From IMG/VR virus record IMGVR_UViG_3300037826_000044, positions 1 through 33,114 of that record: a stretch of 33,114 bases of DNA; one strand, written 5' to 3'. Positions 249-30,535 of this stretch are shown here, in pieces. The DNA is from a virus. Each line of letters starts with the position of its first letter. Positions within the stretch are counted from its first letter, which is position 1. Under the pieces are notes generated by a model. That model did no database searches. It was not told where the DNA came from and was given only the letters and a program-made list of their open reading frames with translations. Position numbers and translations under genes: made by a program.

Positions 249-1546
249 TTGAACCAATCGAAACCACACGCGGCATTGACACGCTGGCACCGCACCCGCG
301 CAACTACAACCAGCATCCGCCAGAGCAGATTGCACGTATCGCCAAAAGCCTCGTGCAGTTTGGGCAGGTACGCCCGATTGTAGTGCACGGCGATACCATC
401 ATCGCAGGCCACGGTGTGTGGATGGCGGCTGCTGCGCTGGCTGACCCTGTGGTCAATGAGGCGATGTTACGCGGATATGTGTTTGATGACACCACACATA
501 CCTATGAACAATGGTGCGAGCATAGGCATGACACATTTCAATCGTTGCGCGTCACCCAACTACCCGATGACTGGACAGAAGAGCAAGCCATGGCCTACCT
601 CGTAGCTGACAACGAGACGCGACGTGGCGCTGAACCCGACGATGCCGAACTGGCCGCGCTGCTCGACGAGTTGCAGCAGGCTGATTTTGATATCGCCGCG
701 ATGGGCTTTGACGATGCCGAGTATAGCGCGCTGTTGGATGGGTTGACGCCGGAATTGCCAGAACCCGGCAGCGGCGGCGATGAGTTTGAACCCGATGAGA
801 ATGCGCCGTGCCGCGTGCAGCCGGGTGACGTGTGGCTCATCGGTGGCGTGCATCGCCTGATTTGTGGGGACTGCACCGACCCAGCGACGGTGGATCGGCT
901 GATGCAGGGGGAGCGGGCGGATGCGGTGATATACGACCCTCCGTGGGATGCTGCCGTGTCGTATACAGCAGACACAACTAGTACTGTGCTGGCATTTTGC
1001 GATGGGCGACGCGCCGCTGATGTTATAACGCTATTTGGCTCCCCTACGTGGGTATTTGTATGGGATTGTGTAACATCGTGGTATACCCCTAATCGTCCGT
1101 TGCAACGAGGCAAATTCGCGTTTTGGTATGGGGATGTTGCAAATTACCAATTTGATGGCGCACATTACGGTGAGGTCGGTGATGAACGCATAGTACGCAA
1201 TACACGCGGAGAATATGAATTTACGCCTGATCCTCGTGGCAAGCACCTGTCTGATGTATTTGTTGCCCCAATAACCAAACTACATGCCGATGGTCGCCAT
1301 TCTCACGAAAAACCGCTGGATTGGGTGCGCATGCTGATTGCAAATTGCACTGACGGGGTGTTGTTTGACCCCTTCCTCGGCTCCGGCACAACCATCATCG
1401 CGGCACATCGCACCGGACGCCGCTGCTATGGGTGCGAGATCAGCGAGGCATACTGCGAGGTCATCTTGCAACGCTGCGAGGCGGAGGGACTTATAGTAGA
1501 GCGAGTTGCTCAGTCTTTGCAGGAGCCGAACCGTGATGCTGTGTGA
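245..1546 (+). CDS. ParB-like domain fused to beta-class DNA methyltransferase
   Basis: The 433-residue protein has two parts. Residues ~5-165 form a ParB/Srx-like domain (LAPHPRNYNQHP, then QVRPIVV, then IIAGHG), common in front of phage methyltransferases. Residues ~190-415 are the methyltransferase, with catalytic DPPW at 231-234, the HEKP segment near 354 and SAM-binding FDPFLGSGTT at 374-383. DPPW suggests an N4-cytosine or N6-adenine target. Compared with the paralogous ParB domain at 2474, it carries about 30 extra residues around 62-98, just after the GHG motif. Start ATG overlaps the previous stop. Its last 56 bases overlap, tail to tail, the radical SAM gene on the other strand. The likely role is modification of phage DNA against host restriction. 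Confidence 0.88.
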   Translation: MIEPIETTRGIDTLAPHPRNYNQHPPEQIARIAKSLVQFGQVRPIVVHGDTIIAGHGVWMAAAALADPVVNEAMLRGYVFDDTTHTYEQWCEHRHDTFQSLRVTQLPDDWTEEQAMAYLVADNETRRGAEPDDAELAALLDELQQADFDIAAMGFDDAEYSALLDGLTPELPEPGSGGDEFEPDENAPCRVQPGDVWLIGGVHRLICGDCTDPATVDRLMQGERADAVIYDPPWDAAVSYTADTTSTVLAFCDGRRAADVITLFGSPTWVFVWDCVTSWYTPNRPLQRGKFAFWYGDVANYQFDGAHYGEVGDERIVRNTRGEYEFTPDPRGKHLSDVFVAPITKLHADGRHSHEKPLDWVRMLIANCTDGVLFDPFLGSGTTIIAAHRTGRRCYGCEISEAYCEVILQRCEAEGLIVERVAQSLQEPNRDAV

Positions 1547-2333
1547 TATAGCGCGGGTTTTCGTATCCCACCGGGAGATATCCTTGCAGGTCTTTCTTGA
1601 TGTAATGCCGCACGCCAAGGCGATGGCACAAATCAAGAATGCGATGGGTGTACCTCTCCCAGTCAGTCGTTCCGGTCATCGGCAGATAGTTTGCCCTGCC
1701 GATTTTATACAGATTAACAAATTCGTGCGTATGCTCAATGATCTGCAAACTGGCCTCGGTACTCAATGTCGGCTCCAGGCTGACCCACGTGAAGATACCC
1801 GCCTTGTGGAACAGACGCAACGTATTGATGCGATCATCGGGAACTGCTGCACCGCGTTCCCATTTCTGGCTGAAATCAGCATCCAACGACGTGAGCGTGC
1901 TGGCGAACGCATCCCGCTCTGGCCTGAACAAATCAAGGTCGCGCAACGCACGACTGCCGCCCTTTGTGAGCGTGCAAATGCCCAGACCATGGGCTTGCAA
2001 CGTTTGCAGCACATGACGCGTGAGCGAGTTGTCAAATGGGTGGTAGGGGTCTGTGGTGAACGACAGCATCACCTGTTCGGTGATGTCAAGTTCCTGGTAC
2101 TTCACCGCATCCTTGCGCAACTTATCAATAAACTCGGGGCGCGGCTCCGCACCGGCGTCAAACTCGGGACGCGGCATGCGCAGCACTTTGGGCACATAGC
2201 AATAGGCGCACTGATGCCCGCATCCGCGATAGGGGTTTGTGGCCAGCCTGGAATACTCGCCAGCTTGCCCGCGTGGGGCATAGATAATCGAGCAGCCTTT
2301 GACGCTCCAGCCGTCGGGGTTCAGGGTAGGCAT
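1491..2333 (-). CDS. Radical SAM protein, SplB/COG1533-like
   Basis: The protein has about 280 residues. The cluster-binding motif CxxxCxxC is seen as RGCGHQCAYCYVP (Cys38, Cys42, Cys45), followed by a radical SAM barrel with LSFTTDPYHP, LTKGG and SLEPTLS strand segments. Proteins of this kind resemble spore photoproduct lyase and its uncharacterised relatives and cleave SAM to a 5'-deoxyadenosyl radical. I chose the ATG at 2333 because a GGAG stands just upstream; the frame could extend 11 codons further by a rare ATT. It is the only minus-strand gene in the left half, has its own likely promoter and sits between two copies of a ParB module. A part in DNA base modification or repair is possible, but the substrate is unknown. 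Confidence 0.85.
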   Translation of the reverse strand: MPTLNPDGWSVKGCSIIYAPRGQAGEYSRLATNPYRGCGHQCAYCYVPKVLRMPRPEFDAGAEPRPEFIDKLRKDAVKYQELDITEQVMLSFTTDPYHPFDNSLTRHVLQTLQAHGLGICTLTKGGSRALRDLDLFRPERDAFASTLTSLDADFSQKWERGAAVPDDRINTLRLFHKAGIFTWVSLEPTLSTEASLQIIEHTHEFVNLYKIGRANYLPMTGTTDWERYTHRILDLCHRLGVRHYIKKDLQGYLPVGYENPRYITQHHGSAPAKTEQLALL

Positions 2334-2430
2334 AACAGTCTCCGTTCTGTTGTCTCCGATAATCAATGGGGCTGCCGTTCGGAGAGTCCGGCGTTGTCAC
2401 GTGCTGATCAGGCGCGTCTAGCCCATGTCT

Positions 2431-2459
2431 ATTATAGCACGGTTTTCGGCATACCAAAG
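2431..2459 (-). promoter_or_regulatory. Putative promoter of the radical SAM gene
   Basis: On the minus strand a perfect TATAAT (+ strand ATTATA, 2431-2436) lies about 100 bases before the radical SAM start. Upstream of it, at 15-18 bases, only a weak -35 (TTTGGT/TTGGTA) can be made out, so the call rests on the -10. It would give the gene independent expression and a leader of roughly 90 bases. Confidence 0.45.
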
Positions 2460-2473
2460 GCAAGAATGGGTTA

Positions 2474-2995
2474 ATGATGACTGAACCAATCGAGACAACA
2501 CGCGGCATTGACACGCTGGCACCGCATCCGCGCAACTACAATCAGCACCCGCCAGAGCAACTTGAGCGACTGTCCGCCAGCCTGCGCCAGTTCGGGCAGG
2601 TGCGCCCGATTGTAGTGCACGGCGATACCATCATCGCAGGCCACGGCGTGTATATGGTAGCGCAGCACCTTGGCTATAGCACGCTTCGCGTCACGCAACT
2701 GCCCGACGACTGGACAGAAGAGCAGGCGCTCGCCTACCTCGTCGCCGACAACGAGACGCGACGCGGGGCTGAATCCGACGACGCCGGACTGGCAGCACTG
2801 CTCGATGAGTTGCAGCAGGCCGATTTTGATATTGCTGCGATGGGCTTTGACGATGCCGAGTATAGCGCATTGCTCGATGGGTTGACGACGCAAGAGGTTG
2901 ACGCTCCGGAAGGGTTTGGGGAATATGACGAAAACATTGAAACAGACTACTGCTGCCCGAAGTGCGGCTATGAATGGTCAGGCAAGCCAAAATAA
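2474..2995 (+). CDS. ParB-like domain protein with C-terminal zinc ribbon
   Basis: Residues ~1-140 closely repeat the ParB-like domain of the gene at 245 (IDTLAPHPRNYNQHP, RPIVVHGDTIIAGHG, LPDDWTEEQA), without the ~30-residue insertion found there. Where the paralog continues into a methyltransferase, this 173-residue protein ends with CCPKCGYEWSG, which looks like one half of a zinc ribbon. The C-terminal coding sequence overlaps the start of the C5 methyltransferase by 71 bases. It may be a stand-alone partner for that enzyme or the remnant of a methyltransferase that lost its catalytic domain. Start could be either ATG of the ATGATG pair; homology to the paralog favours the second. No strong ribosome-binding site is visible. 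Confidence 0.8.
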   Translation: MMTEPIETTRGIDTLAPHPRNYNQHPPEQLERLSASLRQFGQVRPIVVHGDTIIAGHGVYMVAQHLGYSTLRVTQLPDDWTEEQALAYLVADNETRRGAESDDAGLAALLDELQQADFDIAAMGFDDAEYSALLDGLTTQEVDAPEGFGEYDENIETDYCCPKCGYEWSGKPK

Positions 2996-3986
2996 GCCAC
3001 CGTATCGCGTGCCATCTATGGACGAAATTGCAGCCGTGCCCTGGAATGGTTACACTGCGATCTCTACATTTAGCGGGTGCGGCGGGTCGTCACTTGGCTA
3101 CAAGATGGTGGGGTTTCGGGTGTTGTGGGCTAGTGAGTTTGTGCCAGCCGCGCAAGAGGTGTATCGCCTGAACCACCCTGACACTATACTTGACACCCGT
3201 GATATACGACAGGTGCAATCATCAGAGATACTAAGTGTCATAGGAATGCAGCGTGGTGAACTCGACTTGCTTGACGGCTCGCCACCGTGTGCATCGTTCT
3301 CGACTGCGGGCAAGCGTGAGGCAGGTTGGGGGAAAGTCAAGCAGTATAGCGATGTAAGACAACGTGTTGATGACCTGTTTTTCGAGTATGCGCGTTTGTT
3401 GGAAGGATTGCAACCCCGTGTGTTTGTTGCTGAAAATGTGAGTGGACTTGTGAAAGGCTCGGCAAAAGGGTACTTCAAGTTGATACTGCAAACCCTAAAG
3501 GACTGCGGCTACAACGTCAAGGCACAGGTGCTTGACGCGCAATGGCTTGGGGTTCCACAGATGCGACAGCGCCTCATCTTTGTTGGGGTGCGGAATGATT
3601 TGGATATTGCGCCCGTGTTTCCCATGCCGCTGCCCTATCGGTATACAGTGCGTGAATGTCTTCCGCACATTCGTCGCATTCGGCTCGGCGGTCACCCTGA
3701 AAATTGGAAGGCGAGTGACAGGCCAGCAGCGACTGTTACACAATCTGACGGGGCAAGAGAGAATCTTACTGCCTATCTCAGTAGTTATATGATAGAGGAT
3801 AGTAAAAAAAATATTAGAAAATACAACATTCCAGAACTACGTTGCATCTGCGCCTTTCCTGATGATTTCCAACTTACTGGTACGTTTGCTCAGCAATGGG
3901 AGCGACTTGCTCGCGCTGTTCCGCCGGTGATGATGTCGCATATTGCCGCAACGATACGAGATGAGATATTATGCAAGATATCATAG
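2925..3986 (+). CDS. dcm: C5-cytosine DNA methyltransferase with unusual motif X (Arg for Asn)
   Basis: The 353-residue protein shows the ordered motifs of the family: I, STFSGCGGSSLGY (47-59); IV, GSPPCASFS with catalytic Cys122; VI, AENV (169-172); VIII, QMRQR (212-216); IX, RPAATVTQ (266-273); and, before motif X, FPDDF (311-315). Motif X normally reads GNAVPP; here it is ARAVPP, with Arg330 (codon 3912-3914) in the Asn place next to the cofactor sulfonium. That Asn is the residue whose change to a basic one let an engineered CpG methyltransferase (M.MpeI) use carboxy-SAM, as I recall. The next gene is CmoA-like and overlaps by 16 bases. I therefore infer a carboxymethyltransferase, not an ordinary methylase. 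The start ATG at 2925 has GGGG just before it; an ATG at 2970 is an alternative. The target-recognition region is short. Confidence 0.93.
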   Translation: MTKTLKQTTAARSAAMNGQASQNKPPYRVPSMDEIAAVPWNGYTAISTFSGCGGSSLGYKMVGFRVLWASEFVPAAQEVYRLNHPDTILDTRDIRQVQSSEILSVIGMQRGELDLLDGSPPCASFSTAGKREAGWGKVKQYSDVRQRVDDLFFEYARLLEGLQPRVFVAENVSGLVKGSAKGYFKLILQTLKDCGYNVKAQVLDAQWLGVPQMRQRLIFVGVRNDLDIAPVFPMPLPYRYTVRECLPHIRRIRLGGHPENWKASDRPAATVTQSDGARENLTAYLSSYMIEDSKKNIRKYNIPELRCICAFPDDFQLTGTFAQQWERLARAVPPVMMSHIAATIRDEILCKIS

Positions 3987-4686: not shown

Positions 4687-5112
4687 ATGGCACGCAAACC
4701 TACCGCAGCCGAATACCAGAAGCGCATTAATGAGGTGTATCTCGCTCTCATCAATGGCAGCAGTAGGCAAGATATACATCGTTATGCATCGAAAAAATGG
4801 GGAGCCAATGATCGCAGCACTGATGCTCTCATTGCTCGTGCTCGCAAGCGGTTAGACGAGGAAGCCGCTGAATATCGCGCTACGGCAATGGCTGAACATC
4901 TCGCAGCGCGTCGGCAACTGCGTAAGCAAGCGGCACAGGATAAAGACAAGCGTTTGGTGTTGGAAGTGCTGCGAGATGAGGCAAAGCTGTTGGGATTGTA
5001 TGAACCGGAGAAGGTACAGCAAGAGCAAGATGGCAAGCAGCGAATCGAGATTGTCTATGTCAACAACCCGGACAACCAGGACAACCCGGATACACTTGAT
5101 AGTACCACATAG
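4687..5112 (+). CDS. terS: Terminase small subunit, probable
   Basis: The 141-residue protein has a helix-turn-helix-like N-terminal half (ALINGSSRQDIHRYASKKWG, then DRSTDALIARARKR), a charged, probably coiled-coil middle (AARRQLRKQAAQDKDKR) and a polar Asp/Asn-rich tail. This layout fits small terminase subunits, which bind the packaging site on phage DNA and hand it to the large subunit. The identification rests mainly on its place directly before and overlapping the large subunit gene. An AAGG lies upstream of the ATG. Confidence 0.72.
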   Translation: MARKPTAAEYQKRINEVYLALINGSSRQDIHRYASKKWGANDRSTDALIARARKRLDEEAAEYRATAMAEHLAARRQLRKQAAQDKDKRLVLEVLRDEAKLLGLYEPEKVQQEQDGKQRIEIVYVNNPDNQDNPDTLDSTT

Positions 5113-6280
5113 CGCACAGCAGCAGGTTACCAGCGAGGCTAGGCGCTACAATGTGGTGGCCTGCGGGCGGCGTTGGGGCAAAACGACGCTTGGCATTGAT
5201 CGTCTCATCCATCCTGCATTAAATGGCAAGCCGGTTGCTTATTTCATCCCGACCTACAAGATGCTGGCGGAGGTATGGCGCGAAATGTCGCATGTCCTGT
5301 CGCCAATCGTGGCGCGAGTGTCGGTACAACAAAACCGACTCGAACTGACAACTGGAGGCGTTGTGGATATGTGGAGCCTGGAACGCGAGTCGGTGCGCGG
5401 ACGTAAATATACGCGTGTGGTGATTGATGAGGCGGCTATGGTGCGCGATCTGGCAGACGCATGGCAAGCGGTCATCAGGCCAACCCTCACTGACTATCGC
5501 GGGGATGCGTGGATGCTGAGCACCCCGAGGGGTCGCAACTTTTTTTGGGAGTGTTTTCAGCGCGGAATGGGTTGTGATCCGCAATGGCGCGCCTGGCAGA
5601 TGCCCACGAGTACCAACCCGCATATCAGCCCCGAAGAGATAGAAGCCGCTCGGCAAGAATTGCCACGTGTCGTATTTGAACAAGAGTACCTTGCGCAGTT
5701 TGTGAAGAGCGATACGGCGGTTTTTGATGAGCAAGACATTGCCAATGCTGCCGACGGTGCAACAGGCGAGCAGACGCCACACCGCACGGGCGCATACCTG
5801 ACCAGTGTAGACGTTGGACGCAGGCAGGATGCGACCGTCATCAACGTGTTTGATATGGCTGTACAGCCGGTGCAGCGCGTCTATCACGAGCGGGTAGAAC
5901 GCATACCGTATCCTGTCATACAGCAGCACATAGAGCAGGTGTGGCATCGCTATGGCGGGGCGCTCGTGATTGAAAGCAACGGTATCGGCGATCCTCTGAT
6001 CGAAAATCTTGCCGTGCCTGCTGAGCCGTTTGTTACGAGTAGCAAGAGTAAGGTGCAGGCCATTCAGGCGTTGCAATTGCTCCTTGAGCAGGGCGGCCTC
6101 AAGGCCGAATGGACAGAGCAGGAACGCCGCGAACTGATGGGGTACCAGTGGGATGACCGCAACCTGGTGCAGGACTGCGTAATGAGTTTGGCGATAGGCG
6201 CGTATCATATCACAGCCGCGCCGCACGAGACGCATGTCATCAACTACACCGATGACATTCCAGGGATATCGGGGTGGTAG
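5057..6280 (+). CDS. terL: Terminase large subunit
   Basis: This is the ATP-driven packaging motor and headful or site nuclease. The Walker A motif is GRRWGKTT, preceded by the conserved VVACGRR strand; the Walker B region reads VVIDEAAMV; the coupling segment is LSTPRGRN. The C-terminal RNase H-like nuclease has its first acid in TSVDVGRRQDATV and a second in VIESNGIGD, and a late conserved block in YQWDDRNLVQDCVMSLAIGAY. The 5' end is uncertain: the ATG at 5057 gives ~407 residues but overlaps terS by 56 bases, while a TTG at 5096 would start shortly before the conserved AQQQV segment with a smaller overlap. The stop is five bases before the portal start. Confidence 0.93.
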   Translation: MSTTRTTRTTRIHLIVPHSAQQQVTSEARRYNVVACGRRWGKTTLGIDRLIHPALNGKPVAYFIPTYKMLAEVWREMSHVLSPIVARVSVQQNRLELTTGGVVDMWSLERESVRGRKYTRVVIDEAAMVRDLADAWQAVIRPTLTDYRGDAWMLSTPRGRNFFWECFQRGMGCDPQWRAWQMPTSTNPHISPEEIEAARQELPRVVFEQEYLAQFVKSDTAVFDEQDIANAADGATGEQTPHRTGAYLTSVDVGRRQDATVINVFDMAVQPVQRVYHERVERIPYPVIQQHIEQVWHRYGGALVIESNGIGDPLIENLAVPAEPFVTSSKSKVQAIQALQLLLEQGGLKAEWTEQERRELMGYQWDDRNLVQDCVMSLAIGAYHITAAPHETHVINYTDDIPGISGW

Positions 6281-6284
6281 ATTT

Positions 6285-7874
6285 ATGAGCACGCTTGTAT
6301 TACCGAACGGCACACCATATCAGCCACAACCGCAACCATCGGAGGGTGCGTATTTCGAGGCGCTGGCGCAACTCCTGGAGAGCCGTATCGGTGAGCTTGA
6401 GTTGGAGTTGTACGGCCCGGATGCGCGTTGGGAACAACTGCACGGCGGCGGCGACCAGTTCACGCGTCAATCCATCCAGGAGGTTGCGAACCTCGCTGAG
6501 GTTATGTACCTCAAAAACCCGCTTATCCAGCGCGGCATCAACATCAAAACGTACTACACCTTCGGTCAGGGCGTGCAGGTGAGCGCGCCAAATCCTGAGA
6601 TTAACGACGTCATTCAATCGTTTTGGGATGATGAGCGCAACCAGGCTGAACTGACGCGCACACAGGCGATGATGGGCAAGGATGTCGATCTCCAAGTGTC
6701 GGGTAATCTGTTCTTTGTGCTCTTCACAAACCAACGCAGCGGGCGCGTCCGGGTGCGGAGTGTACCTCTTGCCGAAATCCAGGATATTGTATGCAATCCC
6801 GACGACGCAAAAGAACCCTGGTACTATTTGCGCCGATGGACACAGATGGGCGCGCAGGGCGGGTATCGCGCTGCATACTATCCCGACTGGCGTTACACAC
6901 CGCGCACCAAACCCGATGCCTATGACGGCATCGCCATTGAATGGGATGCGCCGATCTACCACGTCAGGGTGGGGGGTATGTCCTGGTGGCAGTTTGGTCT
7001 GTCAACGGTGTATGCGCAGATCGATTGGGCACGCGCATACAAGGTGTTCCTGGAGAGCATTCACAGCTACACCCAGGCCGTGAGTCGCATAGCTGTCAAA
7101 GTTACAACTGGCGGCGGTGCCGGTGGCGTTGCAAAGGCCAAGAGTAAATTTGCCTCAACCATCAGTAGTCACGATCGACGCGAAACAAACCCGGCAGCCG
7201 CAACCGGCAGCGCGTTCATTCGGGCGAACCAGGATGCCGATTACGAGCCGTTGAATATCCGTGGATTGTCGGTTGCACCGGAGGATGGTCGTCGTTTCCT
7301 GCTGATGGTTGCAGCAGCGGCAGGCATTCCTGAGGTATTTTACGGCGATGCTGATGTTGGCAACCACGCCACGGCGAAGAGCTTGGACAGACCCACCGAA
7401 CTGATGATGCGCAACCGCCAGGAGATGTGGCGCAACGTGCTGCAAGACATCCTCGGTTACGTCGTGAAGAACGCAGTGCTGGCACCACGCGGCGCGCTGG
7501 CAGATATGGCAGATGTGGAGCGCGAACCAGACGAGGCTGATCCAGGGCAGGACACCATCACCCTGGATTGGGATACCAATCCGGACACGGGAGACCCGTA
7601 CGATAGCAGCATCGATATTGATTTCCCAGAGATCATCAACATCGATGTGAAAGAGCGTGTCGAGGCCATCACCACGGCGTATCAATCGCAGACGGTGAGC
7701 GCCCGTACGGTTGCGCGCCTGCTGCTCATTGCGCTGGGCGTCGAGGATGTGGACAAAGAACTTGACGCGATGTATCCTGACTGGGCACCGGGTGATTTTG
7801 GCGACGGCACGCCGCCGGACATGGAAGAGGTAGCACGCCGGATTGTGGAGGCGATGCGAAAGGGGGATACATAA
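6285..7874 (+). CDS. Portal protein
   Basis: The 529-residue protein has the size and sequence habit of siphovirus portals, the dodecameric ring through which DNA enters the capsid. Seen are the early helical segment NPLIQRGINIKTYYTFGQG, a wing region with FFVLFTN and VRSVPLAEIQDI, the WWQFGLSTVYAQIDWARAYK stretch, the loop GIPEVFYGDADVGNHATAKS and the acidic WDTNPDTGDPY segment before the C-terminal helices. It lies directly after TerL, as usual. The ATG at 6285 is preceded by GGGGTGG; an in-frame ATG at 6234 inside terL is less likely. Confidence 0.9.
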   Translation: MSTLVLPNGTPYQPQPQPSEGAYFEALAQLLESRIGELELELYGPDARWEQLHGGGDQFTRQSIQEVANLAEVMYLKNPLIQRGINIKTYYTFGQGVQVSAPNPEINDVIQSFWDDERNQAELTRTQAMMGKDVDLQVSGNLFFVLFTNQRSGRVRVRSVPLAEIQDIVCNPDDAKEPWYYLRRWTQMGAQGGYRAAYYPDWRYTPRTKPDAYDGIAIEWDAPIYHVRVGGMSWWQFGLSTVYAQIDWARAYKVFLESIHSYTQAVSRIAVKVTTGGGAGGVAKAKSKFASTISSHDRRETNPAAATGSAFIRANQDADYEPLNIRGLSVAPEDGRRFLLMVAAAAGIPEVFYGDADVGNHATAKSLDRPTELMMRNRQEMWRNVLQDILGYVVKNAVLAPRGALADMADVEREPDEADPGQDTITLDWDTNPDTGDPYDSSIDIDFPEIINIDVKERVEAITTAYQSQTVSARTVARLLLIALGVEDVDKELDAMYPDWAPGDFGDGTPPDMEEVARRIVEAMRKGDT

Positions 7875-8119: not shown

Positions 8120-8396
8120 CACATACATTCTTTTTGATCGCCAATGGGGGCACATCGAGATTGTTGCGCCTGATGGAACACGTACCGAAAGTGTTGTGTT
8201 TATGCGCACACTGACGGACGGTGGCGTGGAATGGTCGCGGCATGCATTGCCGCCTGAGGTTGGCAATTTAATGCACAGCCTCAACATTGATAATGAACAG
8301 GAATTGTGGCAATGGGTGGGTGAGCAGGGCGGCGATAATCGTATGGTTAAGGTTGACCTGATTGTGGAATCGATGAGAACGGAAAATCTGACATGA
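8106..8396 (+). CDS. Small hypothetical phage protein
   Basis: The 96-residue protein starts at the ATG at 8106, which has a strong GGGGAGG eight bases upstream; the frame is open further up but without a better start. It overlaps the preceding gene by 14 bases and the next one by an ATGA. The sequence is mildly acidic with strand-like HIEIVAPDGTRTESVVF and a helical second half around NNEQELW-like residues. No known family is recognised. Confidence 0.72.
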   Translation: MTNDNTYILFDRQWGHIEIVAPDGTRTESVVFMRTLTDGGVEWSRHALPPEVGNLMHSLNIDNEQELWQWVGEQGGDNRMVKVDLIVESMRTENLT

Positions 8397-9196
8397 CCAC
8401 CGTTGAGCGCATTGCGGAATCACTCGGCACAAACGAGCGTGACCGTCGTCTTCATCCCATTGAACGTCGCCTATCACAGGCGATGGCAGATGCGTTCAAA
8501 CGTCAATCGCGTACATTCCTGCGTGAGTTGCGCAAGTTGCGCGATACGTTCCCCGAGCATCTCCAGGAGAGCGTGCCAGAGAACATATGGCTCGCTGCCT
8601 GGTTGGCTGCCGTGCGCCTGACACAGCAGGCCATGGCAGACTCTATCGAGGCGGCAGCGCGTGCCGCGTGGATTGTCGGCAATGAGGATATCCAGAGGGA
8701 GATAGGATTTCGTATTGCATTCGATATTGACAATCCGGCAGCTGTGCAGTTCCTGCGTGAATATGGCGCGCAACGTGTCACGATGATTAACGAAACAACA
8801 CGGGATTATATTCGCACGCTGATGGTTGAGGGTATGGAGCAGGGCACGTCCTATACCGAGATGGCACGCCAGTTGCGCAATCGATTTGCTGAATTCAGTA
8901 CGCCCAAACCGCAGCGCCACCTGCGCAATCGTGCCGAACTCGTCGCTGTGACCGAGACCGCGAACGCATATGGTACTGCGCAACGACAGGCAGCGGAGCG
9001 CATCACGCGGGAGGGCATCCGCATGCAGCATCGTTGGATTACGACGGGCGATGATCGGGTGAGCGATGGGTGCCGGGAGAACGCGGCGGTGGGCTGGATA
9101 CCGATGGCGCAGGCGTTCCCGTCGGGCGACTACCACGAGCCGAGATTTCCCGGTTGCCGCTGCGCCGTACAACACAGGAGGGCACGCGATGGCTGA
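8393..9196 (+). CDS. Minor head protein, SPP1 gp7/Mu gpF-like
   Basis: The 267-residue protein matches the phage head morphogenesis family: long helices in the N-terminal two thirds, then the hallmark NRAELVAVTETANAYGTAQR, a HRWITTGDDRVSDGCRENAA segment and the terminal PGCRCAV. Cys and His in these last segments resemble the usual DxRtcpxCxxxdG...PnCRC pattern. Members are minor capsid proteins bound to the portal, thought to travel with the DNA. It follows the portal after two small genes and begins in an ATGA overlap. Confidence 0.9.
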   Translation: MTTVERIAESLGTNERDRRLHPIERRLSQAMADAFKRQSRTFLRELRKLRDTFPEHLQESVPENIWLAAWLAAVRLTQQAMADSIEAAARAAWIVGNEDIQREIGFRIAFDIDNPAAVQFLREYGAQRVTMINETTRDYIRTLMVEGMEQGTSYTEMARQLRNRFAEFSTPKPQRHLRNRAELVAVTETANAYGTAQRQAAERITREGIRMQHRWITTGDDRVSDGCRENAAVGWIPMAQAFPSGDYHEPRFPGCRCAVQHRRARDG

Positions 9197-9404
9197 TCAG
9201 CAGAATATCCGCGAGGCACTACTGAAATTACACCCGCCACTCGTGGAATGCGCACGACTGCTGCCCACGTCCGAACAGCGCATCCGCCCGCAGGTCATAT
9301 CGCTGGCGGTGCTCATCGAGCGACGTTACGATCTCCCGCGAACCCTGCTCACCAGGCGCGAACGGCGCGATGGTGAGATTGAGTGTTGTATTAGTAGGTA
9401 TTGA
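9189..9404 (+). CDS. Small hypothetical phage protein
   Basis: The 71-residue protein starts at an ATG preceded by AGGAGG (9175-9180) and overlaps the minor head protein by 8 bases. It is basic and probably helical (LLKLHPPLVECARLLPTSEQ, ISLAVLIERRYDLPRTLL). The family is not recognised. It is the last gene before a break in the operon that holds a likely promoter and structured RNA. Confidence 0.65.
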   Translation: MADQQNIREALLKLHPPLVECARLLPTSEQRIRPQVISLAVLIERRYDLPRTLLTRRERRDGEIECCISRY

Positions 9405-9405
9405 C

Positions 9406-9513
9406 ATGACAGACGATTTAATCAGGCCAGTGCACGGCGGCGTGTTGCATCCTATGGGTGATTGTGCTATAATACGGGTGATGGATCGACTGTGGTGGGC
9501 CATCTGGTGGTAA
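9406..9513 (+). CDS. Possible 35-residue Trp-rich peptide
   Basis: One base after the previous stop an ATG opens a 35-codon frame ending in DRLWWAIWW. An AGG precedes it but no full ribosome-binding site. The reading frame runs across the putative promoter and into the structured RNA, so both cannot easily be the main function. The Trp-rich end could be membrane-active or chance. Confidence 0.3.
   Translation: MTDDLIRPVHGGVLHPMGDCAIIRVMDRLWWAIWW
9445..9473 (+). promoter_or_regulatory. Putative sigma70-type promoter before the capsid genes
   Basis: TTGCAT (9445-9450) is followed after exactly 17 bases by a perfect TATAAT (9468-9473). Transcription would begin near 9480, just where a set of inverted repeats begins. 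It would drive a small RNA ending at the terminator at 9642 or, by readthrough, the decoration, protease and capsid genes. Confidence 0.55.
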
Positions 9514-9642
9514 ACGGGGCATGGATAACCAGTCGCGCGTGATTTTGACCCCTGCCCACCACTGATCCAACGCAATAATATTCTCACTGAATATCGAAAG
9601 ATAAGCGGTGTATTCTCCTTCGGGAGGGTGCGCCGCTTTTTT
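9480..9642 (+). ncRNA. Candidate structured small RNA or leader
   Basis: The ~160-base stretch between a promoter and an intrinsic terminator folds well by eye. Arms GGATC..TGGTGGGC (9483-9500) and GCCCACCA..GATCC (9554-9568) form a 13-pair closing helix with one asymmetric bulge. Inside it GGGG (9516-9519) faces CCCC (9549-9552), and TGG-ATAA-CCA (9522-9531) is a small hairpin. Then ATATTC-TCACT-GAATAT (9578-9594) is a perfect hairpin, and the terminator helix follows. This could be a free phage small RNA, a packaging RNA or an attenuator for the capsid operon. I do not recognise a known family. Confidence 0.5.
9603..9642 (+). terminator. Intrinsic terminator or attenuator
   Basis: AAGCGG (9603-9608) pairs with CCGCTT (9633-9638), and within it CTCC-TTCG-GGAG makes a UUCG-capped hairpin; six T residues follow (9637-9642). 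The next gene starts only 20 bases later, so readthrough must be allowed or controlled. Confidence 0.7.
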
Positions 9643-9661
9643 GTTCTCTGGAGGGGGGGGC

Positions 9662-10066
9662 ATGGCAACAAACATTACTGAGTACCTGAGCACGTATGGA
9701 CGTTCGGTAACGGTGACACACCCGACGACGCCTTCGAGCGGCGACCCGGTGCTCTGGAATAGCATCACCGGCGTAGCAATTACGGATGAGGGCGACGGAC
9801 AGAATGATGCAACCGACACGAGTGTGCTATTTGGCGATTACGTTGCGACATTGCGCGTTGTGCCGTTTGTCGGCGCAGTTGGTGCCCGCTCTGCTGCCGA
9901 CGTGGCAGTAGGGGACGCCATTTATTACGACAGTACCGTAAGTGCCTCCGAAAGTAGCGCGCTGAATGCTAACAGCCTTGGCGTGTTCTTCGGCTACGCT
10001 ATGTCGAGCGTTGCATCGGCGGCAGGCGGCACGGGCGCTGAAATTTCGGTGTGGCACATCCAGTAA
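9662..10066 (+). CDS. Capsid decoration protein, DUF2190-like
   Basis: The 134-residue protein has the pattern of DUF2190 cement proteins: SGDPVLWNSITGVAITDEGD, then LRVVPFVGAV, then VGDAIYYDS and LGVFFGYAM, that is a small beta-barrel with a conserved GDPV...G.A and GD.IYYD. Such proteins bind the outside of the capsid and stabilise it. A long G-run including GGAGG precedes the ATG at 9662. It opens the capsid gene group after the structured intergenic region. Confidence in the family is moderate, in the gene high. Confidence 0.8.
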   Translation: MATNITEYLSTYGRSVTVTHPTTPSSGDPVLWNSITGVAITDEGDGQNDATDTSVLFGDYVATLRVVPFVGAVGARSAADVAVGDAIYYDSTVSASESSALNANSLGVFFGYAMSSVASAAGGTGAEISVWHIQ

Positions 10067-11823
10067 TGCCCTACACCGTCCGTCAATGCGATGACCAGTG
10101 GTGTGTCGTGAAGGACGACGATGGTGATGTCGTTGGCAGGCACAGCACCCGCGACGCTGCTGATGCTCAAAAAACTGCCCTCGACATCAACGTCACGTCT
10201 CAGGAGGCTGAGAGTTACACACCGCCGCAAGGCGTACGAGACGCCGCTCAGCGGGCGCTGGACTGGCGAGACGAGTACGGGCGCGGCGGCACTGATGTCG
10301 GCATCGCGCGCGCGCGTGACCTGGCAAACGGGCGCAACGTCTCAGCAGATACCATTCAACGGATGGTCAGTTTCTTTGCCCGTCATGGTGTCAATCGTAG
10401 CGAGCATTACGACCTGGAGGATGGGGAACCTACGACGTGGCGCATTGCCTGGGATTTGTGGGGCGGCGATGCTGGGCGACGATGGTCTGAGAGGATAGCA
10501 AAACAAATGGACAGAGAGGAAGAAAGCACAACAACCGAATCGCAGGAAGACGCGCCGAACTATCGCGCTGCTGATGCTCGTGCTCGTTGCGGAAATTGCG
10601 AGTTTCGCCGGGACGACATTTGCACACGCTTCGACTTTGAGGCATCAAGAGACATGGTCTGCGATGATCATACCTATGCTGAGGCTGAAGAGGCTGCCGC
10701 GTCTCTAGAGAGCGCTATCCAGGAGGCAGGCCGCAAACTCAACAAAAAAAACCTGCAACGTGTGATGGATGCAATGAGGATGCTGCAAGAGATGATAGAC
10801 GAGATGACGCCCGATGAAGCGTACAAAGATGACATCGAGGAGGCGTCGTTTGTTGCCGAAACAAAATTGCGCGAACAGGAGCGCAACGGGCGCGCACTCA
10901 TCCGCATCATCACGCCTGGATGGGGCAGCAGCGGCTATTACCCTGCAGAGGTGCTGCGCCGCGACGGCCCAAACGTGTTCACCACAGGCACACAGCTTTA
11001 TCTCAACCACCCAACGCGAACCGAGGAGTCCGAACGGCCTGAGCGCGATATCCGCGACCTGGCGGGCAAACTCGCCAGTGATGCGATATGGATGGATGAC
11101 GGGCTATATGCCGATATCGAGTACTACAACAACCACCGCCCGCTCATTGCGGCTATTGGCGAGGACCTTGATGTATCTATTCGCGCCGATGGCACATACC
11201 GCACCGGCGAGGCGGAGGGTCGCAAGGGCCGCATTATTGAGCAGCTTGTCAGGGCTGAAAGCATAGATTTTGTCACCCGTGCAGGCGCGGGTGGTAAGGT
11301 GGCGCGCCTGATGGAAGCGCGCCAGGATAAACCAATTGAAAAAGTCCGGAGGGGCAAGGTGAAACCAGAGGAACTCACGGCACTCCAGGAGCGGCTTGCC
11401 CGTCTGGAGGAGACCAATCAGGCGCACGTCAATGTGCGTACGGAACTTGAGGAGGCATTGAAGGCAGAGCGGCAGGCGCGCCTGCTGACTGAGGCGCGGC
11501 ACTATATCCAGGAACGTCTCGATAGCAAACTGCCACAGCGCACAGTGGCGCGTCTGTCGCGGGAACTGGAACGCAACATTCCGTTTACCGAAGACGGCAT
11601 GGCGATTGACTATGCCGAATTCAGCAAACACATCAAGGAGGCGGGCGATGTCGCCTGGGTTGAACTGGCAGAGGCCGCGCCGTCGGGCATCATTCGCGGG
11701 ATGGGCACCAGCGCGCCTGCGGTGCTCACAGACGCCGATTTTGAATCGAAACTGGCAGAAGCGTTCCAGGCTAGCGGCATGGATGAGAAGCGCGCCACCA
11801 TTGCGGCGCGGGGGGTGCGGTGA
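10066..11823 (+). CDS. Head maturation protease fused to scaffold, with extra N-terminal domains
   Basis: The 585-residue protein starts in a TAATG overlap. Residues ~1-45 form a small beta domain (YTVRQCDDQWCVVKDDDGDV). Residues ~50-145 match a domain seen in phage and archaeal virus proteins with GRGGTDVGIARARDLANG, a FFARH segment and AWDLWGGDAG. A four-Cys stretch (CGNC, CTRFDF, MVCDDH) follows near 180-205. Residues ~275-425 look like the prohead protease, with YLNHPTRTEE, DVSIRADG and ESIDFVTRAGAGG. From ~435 a coiled coil (ALQERLARLEETNQAHV) resembles an internal scaffold. The protease would cleave the scaffold before the capsid expands. It directly precedes the major capsid gene. Confidence 0.82.
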   Translation: MPYTVRQCDDQWCVVKDDDGDVVGRHSTRDAADAQKTALDINVTSQEAESYTPPQGVRDAAQRALDWRDEYGRGGTDVGIARARDLANGRNVSADTIQRMVSFFARHGVNRSEHYDLEDGEPTTWRIAWDLWGGDAGRRWSERIAKQMDREEESTTTESQEDAPNYRAADARARCGNCEFRRDDICTRFDFEASRDMVCDDHTYAEAEEAAASLESAIQEAGRKLNKKNLQRVMDAMRMLQEMIDEMTPDEAYKDDIEEASFVAETKLREQERNGRALIRIITPGWGSSGYYPAEVLRRDGPNVFTTGTQLYLNHPTRTEESERPERDIRDLAGKLASDAIWMDDGLYADIEYYNNHRPLIAAIGEDLDVSIRADGTYRTGEAEGRKGRIIEQLVRAESIDFVTRAGAGGKVARLMEARQDKPIEKVRRGKVKPEELTALQERLARLEETNQAHVNVRTELEEALKAERQARLLTEARHYIQERLDSKLPQRTVARLSRELERNIPFTEDGMAIDYAEFSKHIKEAGDVAWVELAEAAPSGIIRGMGTSAPAVLTDADFESKLAEAFQASGMDEKRATIAARGVR

Positions 11824-12998
11824 TGAACAATCTGAATTTTGCGGGCCTGATGGAGGCCGATGGGGTGCAGGCAGCGACATTTGAAGCACTCGCCCGCCAG
11901 AATGCACAAATCAACCGGAACACAACTGAATACAAACAACGCTTGTATGAAGCTCAGGTGTATCTGAACAACCTACGCACGCGGCAAACACGCATCCCAT
12001 TGCGTGAGGCAATGAGCACGAGTGACTTCCCCAACCTTTTCGGAGACATCCTCTCTCGTCGCCTGGCGGCGGACTATATGGTATATAGTGCAGACTGGAC
12101 AGCCTACGCCGAGCGACGGATGGTGCCCGATTTCCGCGATGTCAAGACATTCGCGGGGTACGGCGGCGATCAACTGTTGACCGAGGCACCCGAAGGCACC
12201 ACAGGCGTAGGTTATAAGGCTGTGGAAGACCGCGAGCTCACCGATTACGCCGTCAAGAAATACGTCAGCAAGATCCAGTTGACAATGGAAGCACTTGTCA
12301 ATGACGACCTGGGCGCGTTTGATCGACTGCCTACCAAGCTCGCGGCAGGTGCCCGTCGGAGTGAAGAGAAGTTTGTGACTGAATTGTATGCAGGCTCGTC
12401 TGGGCCGCTCGCGGCTGTCTATAGCGTGGGCAATAACAACGTGGTCACGAGTAACCCAACGTTATCGATTAGCGCATTGCAGACGGCATACGCGGTGCTC
12501 AAGAACCAGACTGATGAGAATGGCCTGCCAATTTTCATCGATGCTGTGACGCTCGTTGTGCCGCCTGCTCTAGAAATCACAGCGCGCAATATCCTGAATG
12601 CGACACAGTTGGAGGTCGGGCTCGTGGGACAGGGTGCAGTATCTTCCCCTGCCGAAGAGCAGCGGATTGTGACTGCGAACTGGATGGCGAACCGGACGAC
12701 CCTGGTGGTCAACCCGTGGCTGCCGTACATTGCTGACTCCAATGGCGATACCTCGTGGTATCTGTTCGCGTCTCCCACCAGCGGACGCCCGGCGATTGAA
12801 GTCGGCTTCCTGTCGCTGCTGGGCGGCGCGCCTGCGGTTTTCCGCCGCCGCCCGGACGCCGTGAGCCTGACTGGCAACACTGAAGTTCCCATCGGCTCGT
12901 TCGACAGCAATAGCTACGAATGGGGGGTGATGCACGTATTCGGTGGACAACTCGCCGACTACCGCTGCACAGTTGCCAGCAACGGGACGGAGTCATAA
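11823..12998 (+). CDS. Major capsid protein
   Basis: The 391-residue protein is placed after the protease-scaffold and starts in a TGATG overlap. The N-terminal arm is helical and polar. The HK97-like core shows LLTEAPEGTTGVGYKAVEDR, YAVKKYVSKIQLTMEALVND, an A-domain with EITARNILNAT, and NPWLPYIADSNGDTSWYLF followed by GRPAIEVGFLSLLGG. These fit capsid proteins of Mu-like or related siphophages. Its end overlaps the next gene by one base. Confidence 0.9.
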   Translation: MNNLNFAGLMEADGVQAATFEALARQNAQINRNTTEYKQRLYEAQVYLNNLRTRQTRIPLREAMSTSDFPNLFGDILSRRLAADYMVYSADWTAYAERRMVPDFRDVKTFAGYGGDQLLTEAPEGTTGVGYKAVEDRELTDYAVKKYVSKIQLTMEALVNDDLGAFDRLPTKLAAGARRSEEKFVTELYAGSSGPLAAVYSVGNNNVVTSNPTLSISALQTAYAVLKNQTDENGLPIFIDAVTLVVPPALEITARNILNATQLEVGLVGQGAVSSPAEEQRIVTANWMANRTTLVVNPWLPYIADSNGDTSWYLFASPTSGRPAIEVGFLSLLGGAPAVFRRRPDAVSLTGNTEVPIGSFDSNSYEWGVMHVFGGQLADYRCTVASNGTES

Positions 12999-15597: not shown

Positions 15598-15699
15598 TCC
15601 TTTCAGTTTACTAATGTGTATGTTTAACTTGATTACAATCATACCATATTCAAGTGTGTTTGTCAAGGCTTTGTGATGCGGAATAGTGAGTAATTTAAT
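15598..15699. repeat. Direct repeat, promoter/leader copy (mate 16087-16188)
   Basis: About 100 bases holding the ribosome-binding site, operator-like repeat, promoter and the TGATGCGGAATAGTGAG segment recur at 16087-16188. With the regulator repeat this frames a tandem cassette whose middle gene differs. Confidence 0.85.
15638..15666 (-). promoter_or_regulatory. Promoter of cassette 1
   Basis: Read on the minus strand, TTGACA (15661-15666) and TATGAT (15638-15643) are 17 bases apart. An inverted repeat GATT-AC-AATC (15631-15640) overlaps the -10 and could be an operator. The same promoter occurs at 16130-16158. Confidence 0.82.
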
Positions 15700-28223: not shown

Positions 28224-28526
28224 ATGGGATACACAGACACGTATTCACTGGCTGAAACAACGATTTTTCGGCAGCAGTGTATGGTCTCGCTGGTTCAGTC
28301 GGCAATTAGCATCAGTGCCGAGCCAGACACGACGGATAACCACGCGAACCGTATTGCGCTTGCACACGCAGTGCTGCGTGAACCAGAGCGACATACCAAC
28401 CTGATGAGTTATGCGATAGCATATTATGCTACCGACGAGACAGATACCGCGTTGGACACAGCGGTCGGTAGTGTGTGGGATGCATACGCAAATGCGTATG
28501 CCGAAAACACAGGAAATGTGGTATAA
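28224..28526 (+). CDS. Small protein at the end of the tail operon
   Basis: The 100-residue helical protein has AGGAGG at 28213-28218; of two adjacent ATGs the second (28224) has better spacing. It is acidic at the C-terminus and reads AHAVLREPERHTNLMSYAIA in the middle. Similar short proteins often close phage tail operons with unknown function. A strong terminator follows. Confidence 0.72.
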   Translation: MGYTDTYSLAETTIFRQQCMVSLVQSAISISAEPDTTDNHANRIALAHAVLREPERHTNLMSYAIAYYATDETDTALDTAVGSVWDAYANAYAENTGNVV

Positions 28527-28551
28527 TTAGGTTGGGATTGACGGGGACTTA

Positions 28552-28591
28552 CAGGAGCGCCAGTGGGTAATCCACTGGCGCTCCTGGTTTT
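28552..28591. terminator. Strong hairpin terminator, possibly bidirectional
   Basis: A perfect 15-base-pair stem with a five-base loop (28552-28566 with 28572-28586) is followed by GTTTT on the + strand. It lies between the convergent tail operon and the pentapeptide operon and could end both. Confidence 0.88.
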
Positions 28592-28594
28592 CAT

Positions 28595-29179
28595 TCATTT
28601 TCCAATCACCTCCAACCCGATAGTGCCCGTAGTTATGGCGCTGTGCATGTCGGCACCATCGAGATTAGCACCGCTCAGGTCGGTATAGCTCAAAATGGCG
28701 TAACTCAGGTCAGCCCCGCTCAGGTCGGCATAGCGCAAGTCGGCCTCGCTCATGTTTGCTCTGTGCAAGTCGGCCCCGCTCAAGATGGCCCCGATCATGT
28801 CGGCATAGCTCAGGACGGCCCAGCGCAGGTCTGCACCGCGAAAGTCTGCCCCGCTCAAGTCGGCCCAACACAGGTTAGCACCGCTCAGGTCGGCACCGTG
28901 CAGAACAGCTCCGCTCATATTCACCTCGATCAGGTCAGCACTGCGCAGGATGGCCTCGCTCATGGTAGCCCTGCGCAAGTCTGCCTTGCGTAGGTCGGAC
29001 CTACTTAGGGCAGCCCCGCGCAAGTCGGCCATGCGTAGGTTGACCCTGCGTAGGTCGGCCCTGCGCAGGTCGGCCCTGCGCAGGTCGACCTTGCGCAGGT
29101 TGGCATAGCTAGCACCATCCTGATTCGGGTTCATTAGCCACATCTTGTGTGACTGTAAAATGTTTTGCAGATCAATCAT
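28595..29179 (-). CDS. Pentapeptide-repeat protein 1
   Basis: The 194-residue protein is almost wholly A(D/N)LXX repeats from residue ~25 to 185, which fold as a right-handed quadrilateral beta-helix. The N-terminus IDLQNILQSHKMWLMNPNQD is shared with the two other copies and is therefore part of the family. Pentapeptide proteins of the MfpA/Qnr type mimic DNA and bind gyrase, but no such target can be read here. AGGAGGGT precedes the ATG and a stem-loop lies just upstream. It is the second gene of an operon with the acidic 78-residue protein. Confidence 0.93.
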   Translation of the reverse strand: MIDLQNILQSHKMWLMNPNQDGASYANLRKVDLRRADLRRADLRRVNLRMADLRGAALSRSDLRKADLRRATMSEAILRSADLIEVNMSGAVLHGADLSGANLCWADLSGADFRGADLRWAVLSYADMIGAILSGADLHRANMSEADLRYADLSGADLSYAILSYTDLSGANLDGADMHSAITTGTIGLEVIGK

Positions 29180-29191
29180 CTGTACCCTCCT

Positions 29192-29214
29192 GCCCGGATA
29201 CGATGCCTCCGGGC
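29192..29214 (-). promoter_or_regulatory. Stem-loop before the pentapeptide gene, copy A
   Basis: GCCCGGA (29192-29198) pairs with TCCGGGC (29208-29214), 9-base loop, ending a few bases before the AGGAGG of the pentapeptide gene. No T-run follows, so it is more likely an RNA stability or translation element. A copy is at 31247-31269. Confidence 0.6.
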
Positions 29215-29231
29215 GGGCGTAAAAACATTAG

Positions 29232-29468
29232 TTACACATGGTCAGCGTCAACGTCGTCATCGCTAACCTGGTCATCGAAACCTATCTCTATACCCTCGTC
29301 CCATCCAAACACCAGACATCCGTCGTCATCCCTGTAGAGTCCGCCGCTCTCGTCGTACCACCGAACCAGTTCCAATCCGTTCTCAACCGCTACGTCGCGT
29401 ACAGTTTTCCCGTCTACCATCTGTTCGTTCAGTGCGTCAATCCGTGCCTGGCTCATTACTCGTGTCAT
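29232..29468 (-). CDS. Acidic 78-residue protein, copy A
   Basis: The protein begins MTRVMSQARIDALNEQMVDG with a helix-turn-helix-like KTVRDVAVENGLELVRWYDE, then ends in a very acidic tail (FDDQVSDDDVDADHV). A GAGAGGA site precedes the ATG. It is the first gene after the palindromic promoter and is almost the same as the protein at 31287. The acid tail could mimic DNA or bind a basic partner; function unknown. Confidence 0.78.
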   Translation of the reverse strand: MTRVMSQARIDALNEQMVDGKTVRDVAVENGLELVRWYDESGGLYRDDDGCLVFGWDEGIEIGFDDQVSDDDVDADHV

Positions 29469-29482
29469 TATTCTGTCCTCTC

Positions 29483-29514
29483 AATTCATTCATTCAATTC
29501 ATTCATTCATTCAA
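29483..29514. repeat. ATTC microsatellite in the leader, copy A
   Basis: Between promoter and ribosome-binding site the + strand reads blocks of ATTC, three and then four units separated by A. The matching leader at 31534-31554 has two and two units. Confidence 0.85.
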
Positions 29515-29515
29515 C

Positions 29516-29551
29516 TGACACCATTGTAGCACTATGATACAGTGGTGTCAA
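29516..29551 (-). promoter_or_regulatory. Promoter within a palindrome, copy A
   Basis: On the minus strand TTGACA (29546-29551) and TACAAT (29523-29528) have a 17-base spacer. The arms TGACACCA-TGTA and TACA-TGGTGTCA (29516-29528, 29538-29550), 12 of 13 symmetric, span the promoter and are a likely operator. Confidence 0.85.
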
Positions 29552-29603
29552 TAGCTGTGAGGGATATGATAGCAAATTACTGCATAATTGGTCATAGATG
29601 AAC

Positions 29604-29628
29604 GGGGTGTCAATCATCCTGACACCCC
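29604..29628. promoter_or_regulatory. Inverted repeat GGGGTGTCA-N7-TGACACCCC
   Basis: Perfect nine-base arms surround seven bases at the 3' end of pentapeptide gene 2. The TGACACC core equals that of the promoter palindromes, so it may be a further operator or, as RNA, a weak terminator of operon B. Confidence 0.6.
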
Positions 29629-30273
29629 ATTCATGCCAGGTGCCGAACCCAACCCGATAGTGCCCGTAGTTATGGCACTGCGCAGATCAACCCTGCGCAG
29701 ATCAGCCCTGCGCAAGTCTGCCCCGCTCAGGTTGGCCATGCGCAGGTCTGCGCCGCTCAGGTTGGCGACGTTCAGGTCTGCGCCGCTCAGGTCGGCACCG
29801 CTCAGGTTTGTGTAGCTCAGGTTTGCGTAGCTCAGGTCGGTGTTGCGTAGGTTTGACCCGCTCAGGTCTGCACCGCGCAGATCGGCCCCGATCATGTCGG
29901 TCTTGCTTATGTCGGAATAACGCAGGATGGCATGACTCAGGTTGGTATTGAACAGGTCTGCAATGTGCAAATCGGCCCTGCTCATGTCGGCACTACGCAA
30001 GTCAGCCCTGCGCAGGTTGGCACCGCTCAGATTGGCCCTGCTCATGTCGGCACTACGCAAGTCAGCCCTGCGCAGGTCTGCACCGCTCAGGATGGCCCAG
30101 CGCAGATTAGCACCACTCAGGTCAACCCAGCGCAGGTCTGCACCGCGCAGGTCAGCCCCGTTCAGGTTGGTACCGCGCAGGTTAACACCGCGGAGATTAG
30201 CGGGTTTTGCACCATCCTGATGCGGATTTTGCAGCCATAGTCGATGTGCCTGCAAAATGTTTTGTGTGTCCAT
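29614..30273 (-). CDS. Pentapeptide-repeat protein 2
   Basis: The 219-residue protein starts in a TAATG overlap with the helix-turn-helix gene. Its N-terminus DTQNILQAHRLWLQNPHQDG is like that of the two paralogs, then ~35 A(D/N)LXX repeats follow. It has no acidic partner gene directly before it. It ends operon B. A gyrase-binding or other DNA-mimic role is possible but unproven. Confidence 0.93.
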   Translation of the reverse strand: MDTQNILQAHRLWLQNPHQDGAKPANLRGVNLRGTNLNGADLRGADLRWVDLSGANLRWAILSGADLRRADLRSADMSRANLSGANLRRADLRSADMSRADLHIADLFNTNLSHAILRYSDISKTDMIGADLRGADLSGSNLRNTDLSYANLSYTNLSGADLSGADLNVANLSGADLRMANLSGADLRRADLRRVDLRSAITTGTIGLGSAPGMNGVSG

Positions 30274-30527
30274 TATTCCCCCGTAGCGCCATCATTTTTC
30301 GTTCTTCGCCTATACTGCTGCCGTTCGCTGAGTTCCTCCAGCGATTTCCGTGCCCGCTGACCACGCTCTGCGGCATAGCGTTCCACGCTGTCGCGGGTAA
30401 TGCGAGCGGTACGATTAGTGCCTGGTACACGTTCCAGGCGTCCACGTCGGATATATGTATACACCGTGCGCACGTGGACGCCGAGAAACTTGGCAACCTC
30501 GGCTGTGGTCATAGTAGTGTCAGTCAT
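30273..30527 (-). CDS. Helix-turn-helix protein, MerR/excisionase type
   Basis: The 84-residue protein has the HTH_17 pattern: MTTAEVAKFLGVHVRTVYTY, IRRGRLERVPGTNRTARITR and DSVERYAAERG, as in excisionases and small DNA-binding regulators. A basic tail follows. ATG at 30527 overlaps the stop of pentapeptide gene 3 (ATGA), and the stop overlaps the start of gene 2 (TAATG), so it is locked inside the operon. It may regulate through the nearby TGTCA-N7-TGACA element. An ATG at 30512 is an alternative start. Confidence 0.88.
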   Translation of the reverse strand: MTDTTMTTAEVAKFLGVHVRTVYTYIRRGRLERVPGTNRTARITRDSVERYAAERGQRARKSLEELSERQQYRRRTKNDGATGE

Positions 30528-30535
30528 CCTGACAC
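30517..30535. promoter_or_regulatory. Inverted repeat GTGTCA-N7-TGACAC
   Basis: It covers the start of the helix-turn-helix gene and shares core and spacer (TCATCC) with the element at 29604-29628. It is a possible autoregulatory site. Confidence 0.45.

Follow-up and report, generated by a model that had tools for sequence, protein, structure and literature searches.

Introduction

Why should a phage place a transcription terminator directly in front of its capsid genes? The question is raised by a 33,114-nt stretch of DNA from an uncultured phage (IMG/VR record IMGVR_UViG_3300037826_000044; we refer to the whole analysed stretch as the window), in which a promoter-like site, a foldable segment and a hairpin with a T-run lie among the head genes. 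An earlier note on this DNA had taken these parts for a small RNA or attenuator, perhaps one linked to packaging. Here we ask what the element is composed of, which of its parts are kept in related phages, and how the capsid genes might be transcribed past it.

The element lies between a 71-aa ORF of unknown function (9189-9404, + strand), a conserved upstream gene that is 86-94% identical in relatives, and the gene for a head decoration (cement) protein (9662-10066, + strand). Upstream are genes for a large terminase subunit of the ordinary type (phrog_2; 4976-6280), a portal (6234-7874) and a MuF-type minor head protein (8393-9196); the decoration gene is directly followed by a protease/scaffold gene (10066-11823, + strand) and then by the major capsid protein gene (11820-12998, + strand). 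Among cultured phages the decoration protein and the DNA from 9400 to 9662 have no match, and the capsid protein reaches a best identity of about 40%; a pattern scan found no relatives of the capsid protein in cellular genomes. Elsewhere the window encodes two ParB-like sequences (245-1546 and 2474-2995), one a domain joined to a DNA methyltransferase and the other a protein standing alone beside a cytosine methyltransferase, as well as three pentapeptide-repeat proteins on the - strand (28595-31234), in a region where near-identical promoter-like sites at 29528 and 31568 suggest a duplication.

Results

A promoter-like site and a strong terminator frame a foldable segment

The candidate promoter combines a poor -35 (TTGCAT, 9445-9450; 3/6) with an extended and perfect -10 (TGTGCTATAAT, 9468-9473) across a 17-nt spacer, so that the well-spaced -10 reported earlier is indeed present; within its region no other promoter-like site scores as well (p=0.02 against shuffles). 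Transcription is predicted to start at about 9480. In the minimum free energy fold, 9492-9500 pairs with 9554-9562 in a perfect 9-bp core helix, and an outer helix of seven pairs (9482-9488 with 9563-9569) is set off from it by a 3-nt bulge; the closing helix of 13 pairs described in the earlier note is therefore about right in size, the perfect part being the nine inner pairs. Folding of 9480-9642, which that note had called for, gives -68.2 kcal/mol against -47.7 +/- 4.0 for shuffles (z -5.15; none of 200 as good). Most of this excess comes from the terminator, since 9593-9642 alone has a z of -5.9, as compared with -0.9 for the body alone (9487-9572).

The terminator itself (9604-9642, + strand, the stem beginning at about 9603 and reaching 15-16 bp) consists of a GC-rich stem-loop of 15 pairs with a UUCG-type loop, immediately followed by TTTTTT (9637-9642), as expected of an intrinsic terminator and as the earlier note had recognised. 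At -27 kcal/mol it is the strongest of the four sites in the window that join a hairpin to a T-run, the others lying between -14 and -19 kcal/mol. Its U-run ends 20 nt before the decoration gene, and the position ahead of the capsid genes is thus as first described. Of the other sites in the window we note one at 28520-28590, where a promoter-like sequence (TGGTATAAT) overlaps an ORF end, has a long GC-rich hairpin and a T-rich stretch within about 25 nt downstream of it, and closes the + strand gene block; and one strong promoter-like sequence (TTGACAAACACACTTGAATATGGTATGAT) that occurs twice on the - strand, at 15643 and 16135, antisense to the late genes.

A GC-rich palindrome near a promoter-like string might arise by chance and have no function. 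The z of -0.9 for the body is in keeping with this, as is the count of nine-base inverted-repeat pairs within 90 nt, of which the window holds 59, so that a core helix of this kind is not rare. Chance would not explain the z of the terminator, nor the covariation in the leader, the conserved promoters and the recurrence of the body elsewhere that are described below; we regard it as very improbable for the element at large and as refuted for the leader.

The leader before the decoration gene is conserved and covaries

As relatives we used 17 IMG/VR loci whose decoration protein is 79-85% identical to that of the window, plus one, L120, at 62%. The equivalent of 9586-9664 precedes the decoration gene in all of these loci that could be read, L120 included, in the order ACUGAAU, a 4-bp hairpin with a GNRA tetraloop (UAUC GAAA GAUA, 9592-9603 in the window, + strand), the 15-bp terminator stem with its UUCG-type loop, the U-run, and the ribosome-binding site (GGAGGGGGGG; 9650-9664 on the + strand when the start codon at 9662 is included). 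Across 15 distinct sequences, all of which keep the terminator, standard pairs occupy 283 of the 283 cells in which both letters are present, and five pairs show change on both sides. The 17 doubly changed cells compare with 6.8 +/- 2.0 in shuffles (0/500 as many), and partners slid out of register are only 40-71% paired. The GNRA hairpin has been kept through compensatory changes, its stem appearing as UAUC/GAUA, UGUC/GACA, UGUC/GAUA, UGCG/CGUA or UUUC/GAAA, the last with a GCAA loop. Compensatory changes in relatives, whose lack the earlier note had named as counting against its reading, accordingly exist for the 3' third of the element (GNRA hairpin and terminator); the domain with the 13-pair helix is absent from close relatives.

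Among the records searched, 11 contain the locus, and in each of them a model of the leader found one copy, always at this place, together with weak antisense echoes and weak matches to the terminators of two further phages considered below (L173 and L174). Upstream of the leader a promoter-like site is present in 15/15 regions (p 0.003-0.027 each), with a perfect TTGACA-17-TATAAT in six, and in loci without long inserts the -10 lies 89-194 nt before the start codon. In the relatives the stop codon of the 71-aa ORF overlaps the -35 (TTGACA) of this capsid-side promoter. The leader is absent from more distant capsid relatives (L122-L124, L127, L161 and L165, decoration protein 33-46% identical), where the decoration gene stands closely behind another ORF.

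It is possible, at a probability clearly below that of the reading we prefer, that the element works purely in cis: an internal late promoter would drive the capsid genes, the 5' leader hairpins would tune or stabilise the capsid mRNA, and the body would be an inert recombination remnant. Such an arrangement would fit the fact that every relative has the hairpins attached to its decoration gene, with free variation of the sequence ahead of them, and that in L002 the promoter leads directly into the GNRA hairpin with no body between them. A stabilising hairpin needs no U-run, yet 6-8 of the first 8 positions after the stem are T in 15/15 distinct sequences, which favours termination over mere protection of the mRNA.

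The promoter and body appear to be imported

The part of the element upstream of the leader has a different distribution. Both 9440-9484, which contains the promoter, and 9485-9571, which contains the structured body ("domain X"), are missing from nearly all relatives that hold the leader, and both recur, at 89-95% identity, inside other noncoding units of otherwise unrelated phages (all + strand in the window). In L017, L173 and L174, noncoding units have promoters that match the promoter segment at 89-93% identity, L017 being a relative with the same leader, and the body is 95% identical to L085:7626-7712; with L085, L173 and L174 the window has no further DNA or protein in common. That the body is so similar in an unrelated phage suggests travel as a unit, which speaks against an inert remnant. 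Between body and leader, a linker (AATAATATTCTCACTGAA, 9572-9591, + strand) is common to L007 and L014-L018.

Direct comparison of the window with L003, L014 and L017 shows what lies upstream of the present promoter. In the relic zone (9401-9440, + strand) the resident TTGACA is kept at 9401-9406, the -10 seen in relatives is gone, and the start of an accessory ORF (MTDDLIRPV..., longer in L014) follows; such accessory-ORF relics adjoining the element would also suit the purely cis reading. The 200 bases that the earlier note had treated as a single RNA are instead a mosaic of three pieces with differing distributions.

Two copies of the body are known, in the window and in L085 (z -1.7 against shuffles), whose record ends inside its noncoding unit; they differ at four positions, none of them compensatory, and the predicted fold of the body is thus unproven by evolution. 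A search for the palindrome gave 35 matches, among which L085 and L088 were read, and the palindrome is all that L088 has in common with the window. No exact 21-mer of the body was found in the cellular genome contigs searched, and 9476-9575 has no match in plasmids. L173 and L174 have other head proteins (a portal-MuF fusion and a gpE-type capsid), and in both the noncoding unit stands after a MuF-domain gene, as it does in the window, and ends in a terminator that differs from the window's. We also note that L171 and L172 have an 18-mer in common with the L017/L174 unit, within seemingly ordinary coding sequence.

Phage morons are extra transcription units with their own promoter and terminator that lie between co-oriented genes and are absent in close relatives. 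The imported half of the element is likewise an extra unit between co-oriented genes that close relatives lack; it differs from morons in that its cargo is a noncoding RNA, and in that the promoter is imported but the terminator resident. A promoter and terminator of their own are features of the extra units of L004 and L005 and not of the window element. We have considered whether promoter, RNA and terminator might form one transferable unit, an autonomous small RNA gene acting in trans, with the capsid genes transcribed through from upstream. The occurrence of promoter and body in unrelated phages would agree with this, as would the additional full units of promoter, RNA and terminator that L004 and L005 have at this junction. 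Even so we think it unlikely, as the terminator does not move with the promoter and body (the terminators of L173 and L174 differ, and that of the window is the one resident with the decoration gene) and resident promoters are kept even where there is no body.

A packaging RNA like the phi29 pRNA, or an RNA scaffold of the head, has even less to recommend it. The location among head genes, the size of about 160 nt, and the two other phages with a unit beside MuF-type head genes would be compatible with such a role; however, nearly all relatives that have these head genes lack the body, including those whose portal is 88-94% identical, so that the body cannot be needed for packaging, and a standard large terminase is present. 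We therefore rejected a phi29-type pRNA, the absence of any Rfam match also counting against it. The broader packaging or scaffold reading is largely refuted and retains almost no credence, and the packaging link proposed in the earlier note finds no support, the conserved part being a leader of promoter and terminator.

The junction holds different modules in different phages

Across relatives, between about 200 and about 1550 bases separate a motif in the last codons of the 71-aa ORF from the start codon of the decoration gene. The simplest relatives have a promoter alone between the 71-aa ORF and the leader. L004 and L005 each have one extra unit that includes a promoter, hairpins and a terminator of its own; L007, L014, L015, L016 and L018 have small ORFs; L017 has about 700 nt of noncoding sequence; and L120 has genes for a type IV Cas7, a CysH-like protein and Cas5. 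In L120 these type IV CRISPR genes (Cas7/Csf2, CysH-like, Cas5/Csf3) and a methylase-like ORF occupy 527-3695 and adjoin the RNA unit on its upstream side. A CysH protein typifies type IV-B, and a type IV-B complex has been reported to assemble on non-CRISPR RNA (PMC7937560, PMC10848311).

Two small motifs recur in these noncoding units. A hairpin, GACAGCCGGGARAGACCGGCACA, with a GCCGG/CCGGC stem occurs at L174:4465-4486, L177:1503-1524, L178:1505-1526 and L179:601-629, and in L017 (about 2165-2190) a hairpin of the same type has the stem GCCCG/CGGGC and an unchanged loop. The GACAGCCGGGARAGACCGGCACA hairpin is also present, without annotation, between genes of E. coli phage mEp390, of Cronobacter phages CS01, SG01 and ESP2949-1, and of phage CRES7; Klebsiella and Stenotrophomonas phages as well as E. 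coli chromosomes contain further partial matches to the mEp390 region, and the hairpin matches no Rfam family. The second motif resembles the 3' end of a tRNA (L120 about 3790-3839; L017:1906-1933 and 1644-1671; L174:4393-4420), with five-pair T-arms (loop UGCAAxU; stems that differ in sequence yet still pair, GCGGG/CCCGC, GUAGG/CCUAC and AAAGG/CCUUU) followed by ...ACCA; L120 and L017 add a 7-bp acceptor-like stem, CGCAACU/(G or A)GUUGCG. ARAGORN predicts neither a tRNA nor a tmRNA in the window and the related units, these tRNA-like ends included.

One tentative reading, to which we give a minor share of our confidence, sees a place of exchange in the junction that separates the MuF-type minor head gene from the scaffold/decoration genes: unrelated phages would swap promoter and noncoding RNA modules there, and the RNAs would take part in conflicts with the host or other mobile elements. 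The same reading would take in the modules with tRNA-like T-arm/CCA minihelices and the hairpin found in intergenic gaps of enterobacterial phages.

Comparison with known leaders and RNA classes

In bacteriophage λ, the pR'-tR' leader (the source of "6S" RNA) has a promoter and a close intrinsic terminator before the late genes, and a short RNA is released unless RNA polymerase has been modified by Q. The window likewise has a promoter with a terminator shortly downstream, before late (capsid) genes; the differences are that the arrangement lies inside the head-gene region, directly before the decoration and capsid genes, and that the RNA made ahead of the terminator appears to be exchanged among phages. 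No Q-like or N-like antiterminator protein was recognised among the ORFs scanned, which are part of those of a partial genome, and no Q-like site was identified. The λ nut site consists of boxA and boxB, the latter a 5-bp stem with a pentaloop. A small hairpin with a GNRA-type loop also stands in the present leader, beside the terminator, but with a 4-bp stem and a tetraloop, and 9440-9633 contains no match to boxA (CGCTCTTTA-like) with up to two mismatches, the sole one nearby (9634) being the terminator itself.

A classical riboswitch or T-box attenuator was rejected: the one alternative pairing tried (GAAUAU/GUAUUC, columns 4-8 with 26-30) shows no covariation and is 93.2% paired against 91.8% in shuffles, 129 of 500 of which do as well. 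The body contains a Trp-rich frame (MDRLWWAIWW*, 9481-9513); a trp-type leader peptide was rejected too, as the frame exists only in the imported part, which relatives lack, and the L085 copy is without a nearby in-frame start.

GOLLD, one of the structured phage RNAs of unknown function, combines a variable 5' region with a 3' region that is conserved (PMC12286853), as does the element described here. GOLLD and ROOL RNAs are much larger (many GOLLD exceed 800 nt) and often lie near tRNA islands (PMC12286853); the present RNA is far smaller. The VIPR vrRNAs are intergenic phage RNAs of about 100 nt that join a variable part, with 9-16 YNNGG tandem repeats, to a conserved structured 3' tail (PMC13142463); we rejected this class, since neither the window nor any of the ten related loci checked has a run of at least four GGY at period 5. 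The cis-regulatory freshwater-2 RNA (Rfam RF02980) resembles the locus in having a hairpin, a U-rich stretch and an AAAGGAG-type ribosome site before a start codon, and the look-alike in L120 scores 17 against a threshold of 49.9 (E = 2), which is no match. With Rfam 15, at gathering and/or E-value thresholds, no family was found in the window, L004, L005, L017, L085, L120, L173, L174 or L177-L179.

Discussion

On balance we favour, as somewhat better than an even bet, the view that the locus is a mosaic: a promoter-driven RNA cassette set before the capsid operon's conserved, attenuator-like leader and yielding an RNA of about 160 nt, with the capsid genes transcribed by read-through or antitermination. 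It is the view that needs the fewest assumptions, treating the leader as a promoter-proximal attenuator and the imported part as a swap of promoter that lengthens the RNA. The earlier proposal of a small RNA or attenuator named the right class, to which the covariation of the leader can now be added; the one alternative pairing tried, of the antiterminator kind that a classical attenuator would use, did not hold up.

We envisage two layers. The first would be the capsid-operon leader, that is, the GNRA hairpin and the terminator placed right ahead of the decoration gene's ribosome site, with a promoter always upstream; RNA polymerase starting at this promoter would release a short RNA and would get through to the capsid genes only if termination were leaky or overcome by antitermination. 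The second would be the imported promoter and folded body (9440-9571), which may have replaced the resident promoter and thereby lengthened the short terminated product, in the phage of the window, to a structured RNA of about 160 nt. Initiation, termination and read-through at the leader are inferred here. Because the terminator precedes essential genes, full termination cannot be the sole outcome; and in L004 and L005 polymerase arriving from upstream would meet two terminators, a route that, if used, requires read-through or antitermination.

The RNA segment looks to have been swapped between unrelated phages, which suggests a tradable phage RNA gene. Since its promoter and body are common to unrelated phages, it is plausible that the RNA of about 160 nt acts in trans, in host takeover or in conflict with other elements, rather than being a passenger.

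If the favoured view is right, this group of phages keeps a leader that produces a short RNA ahead of its capsid genes as a slot for exchanged structured RNAs. It would then be of interest by what means the capsid genes are expressed when a strong, conserved terminator precedes them, and what role is played by phage noncoding RNAs that have no Rfam relatives; the modules listed here would provide concrete sequences for such work.
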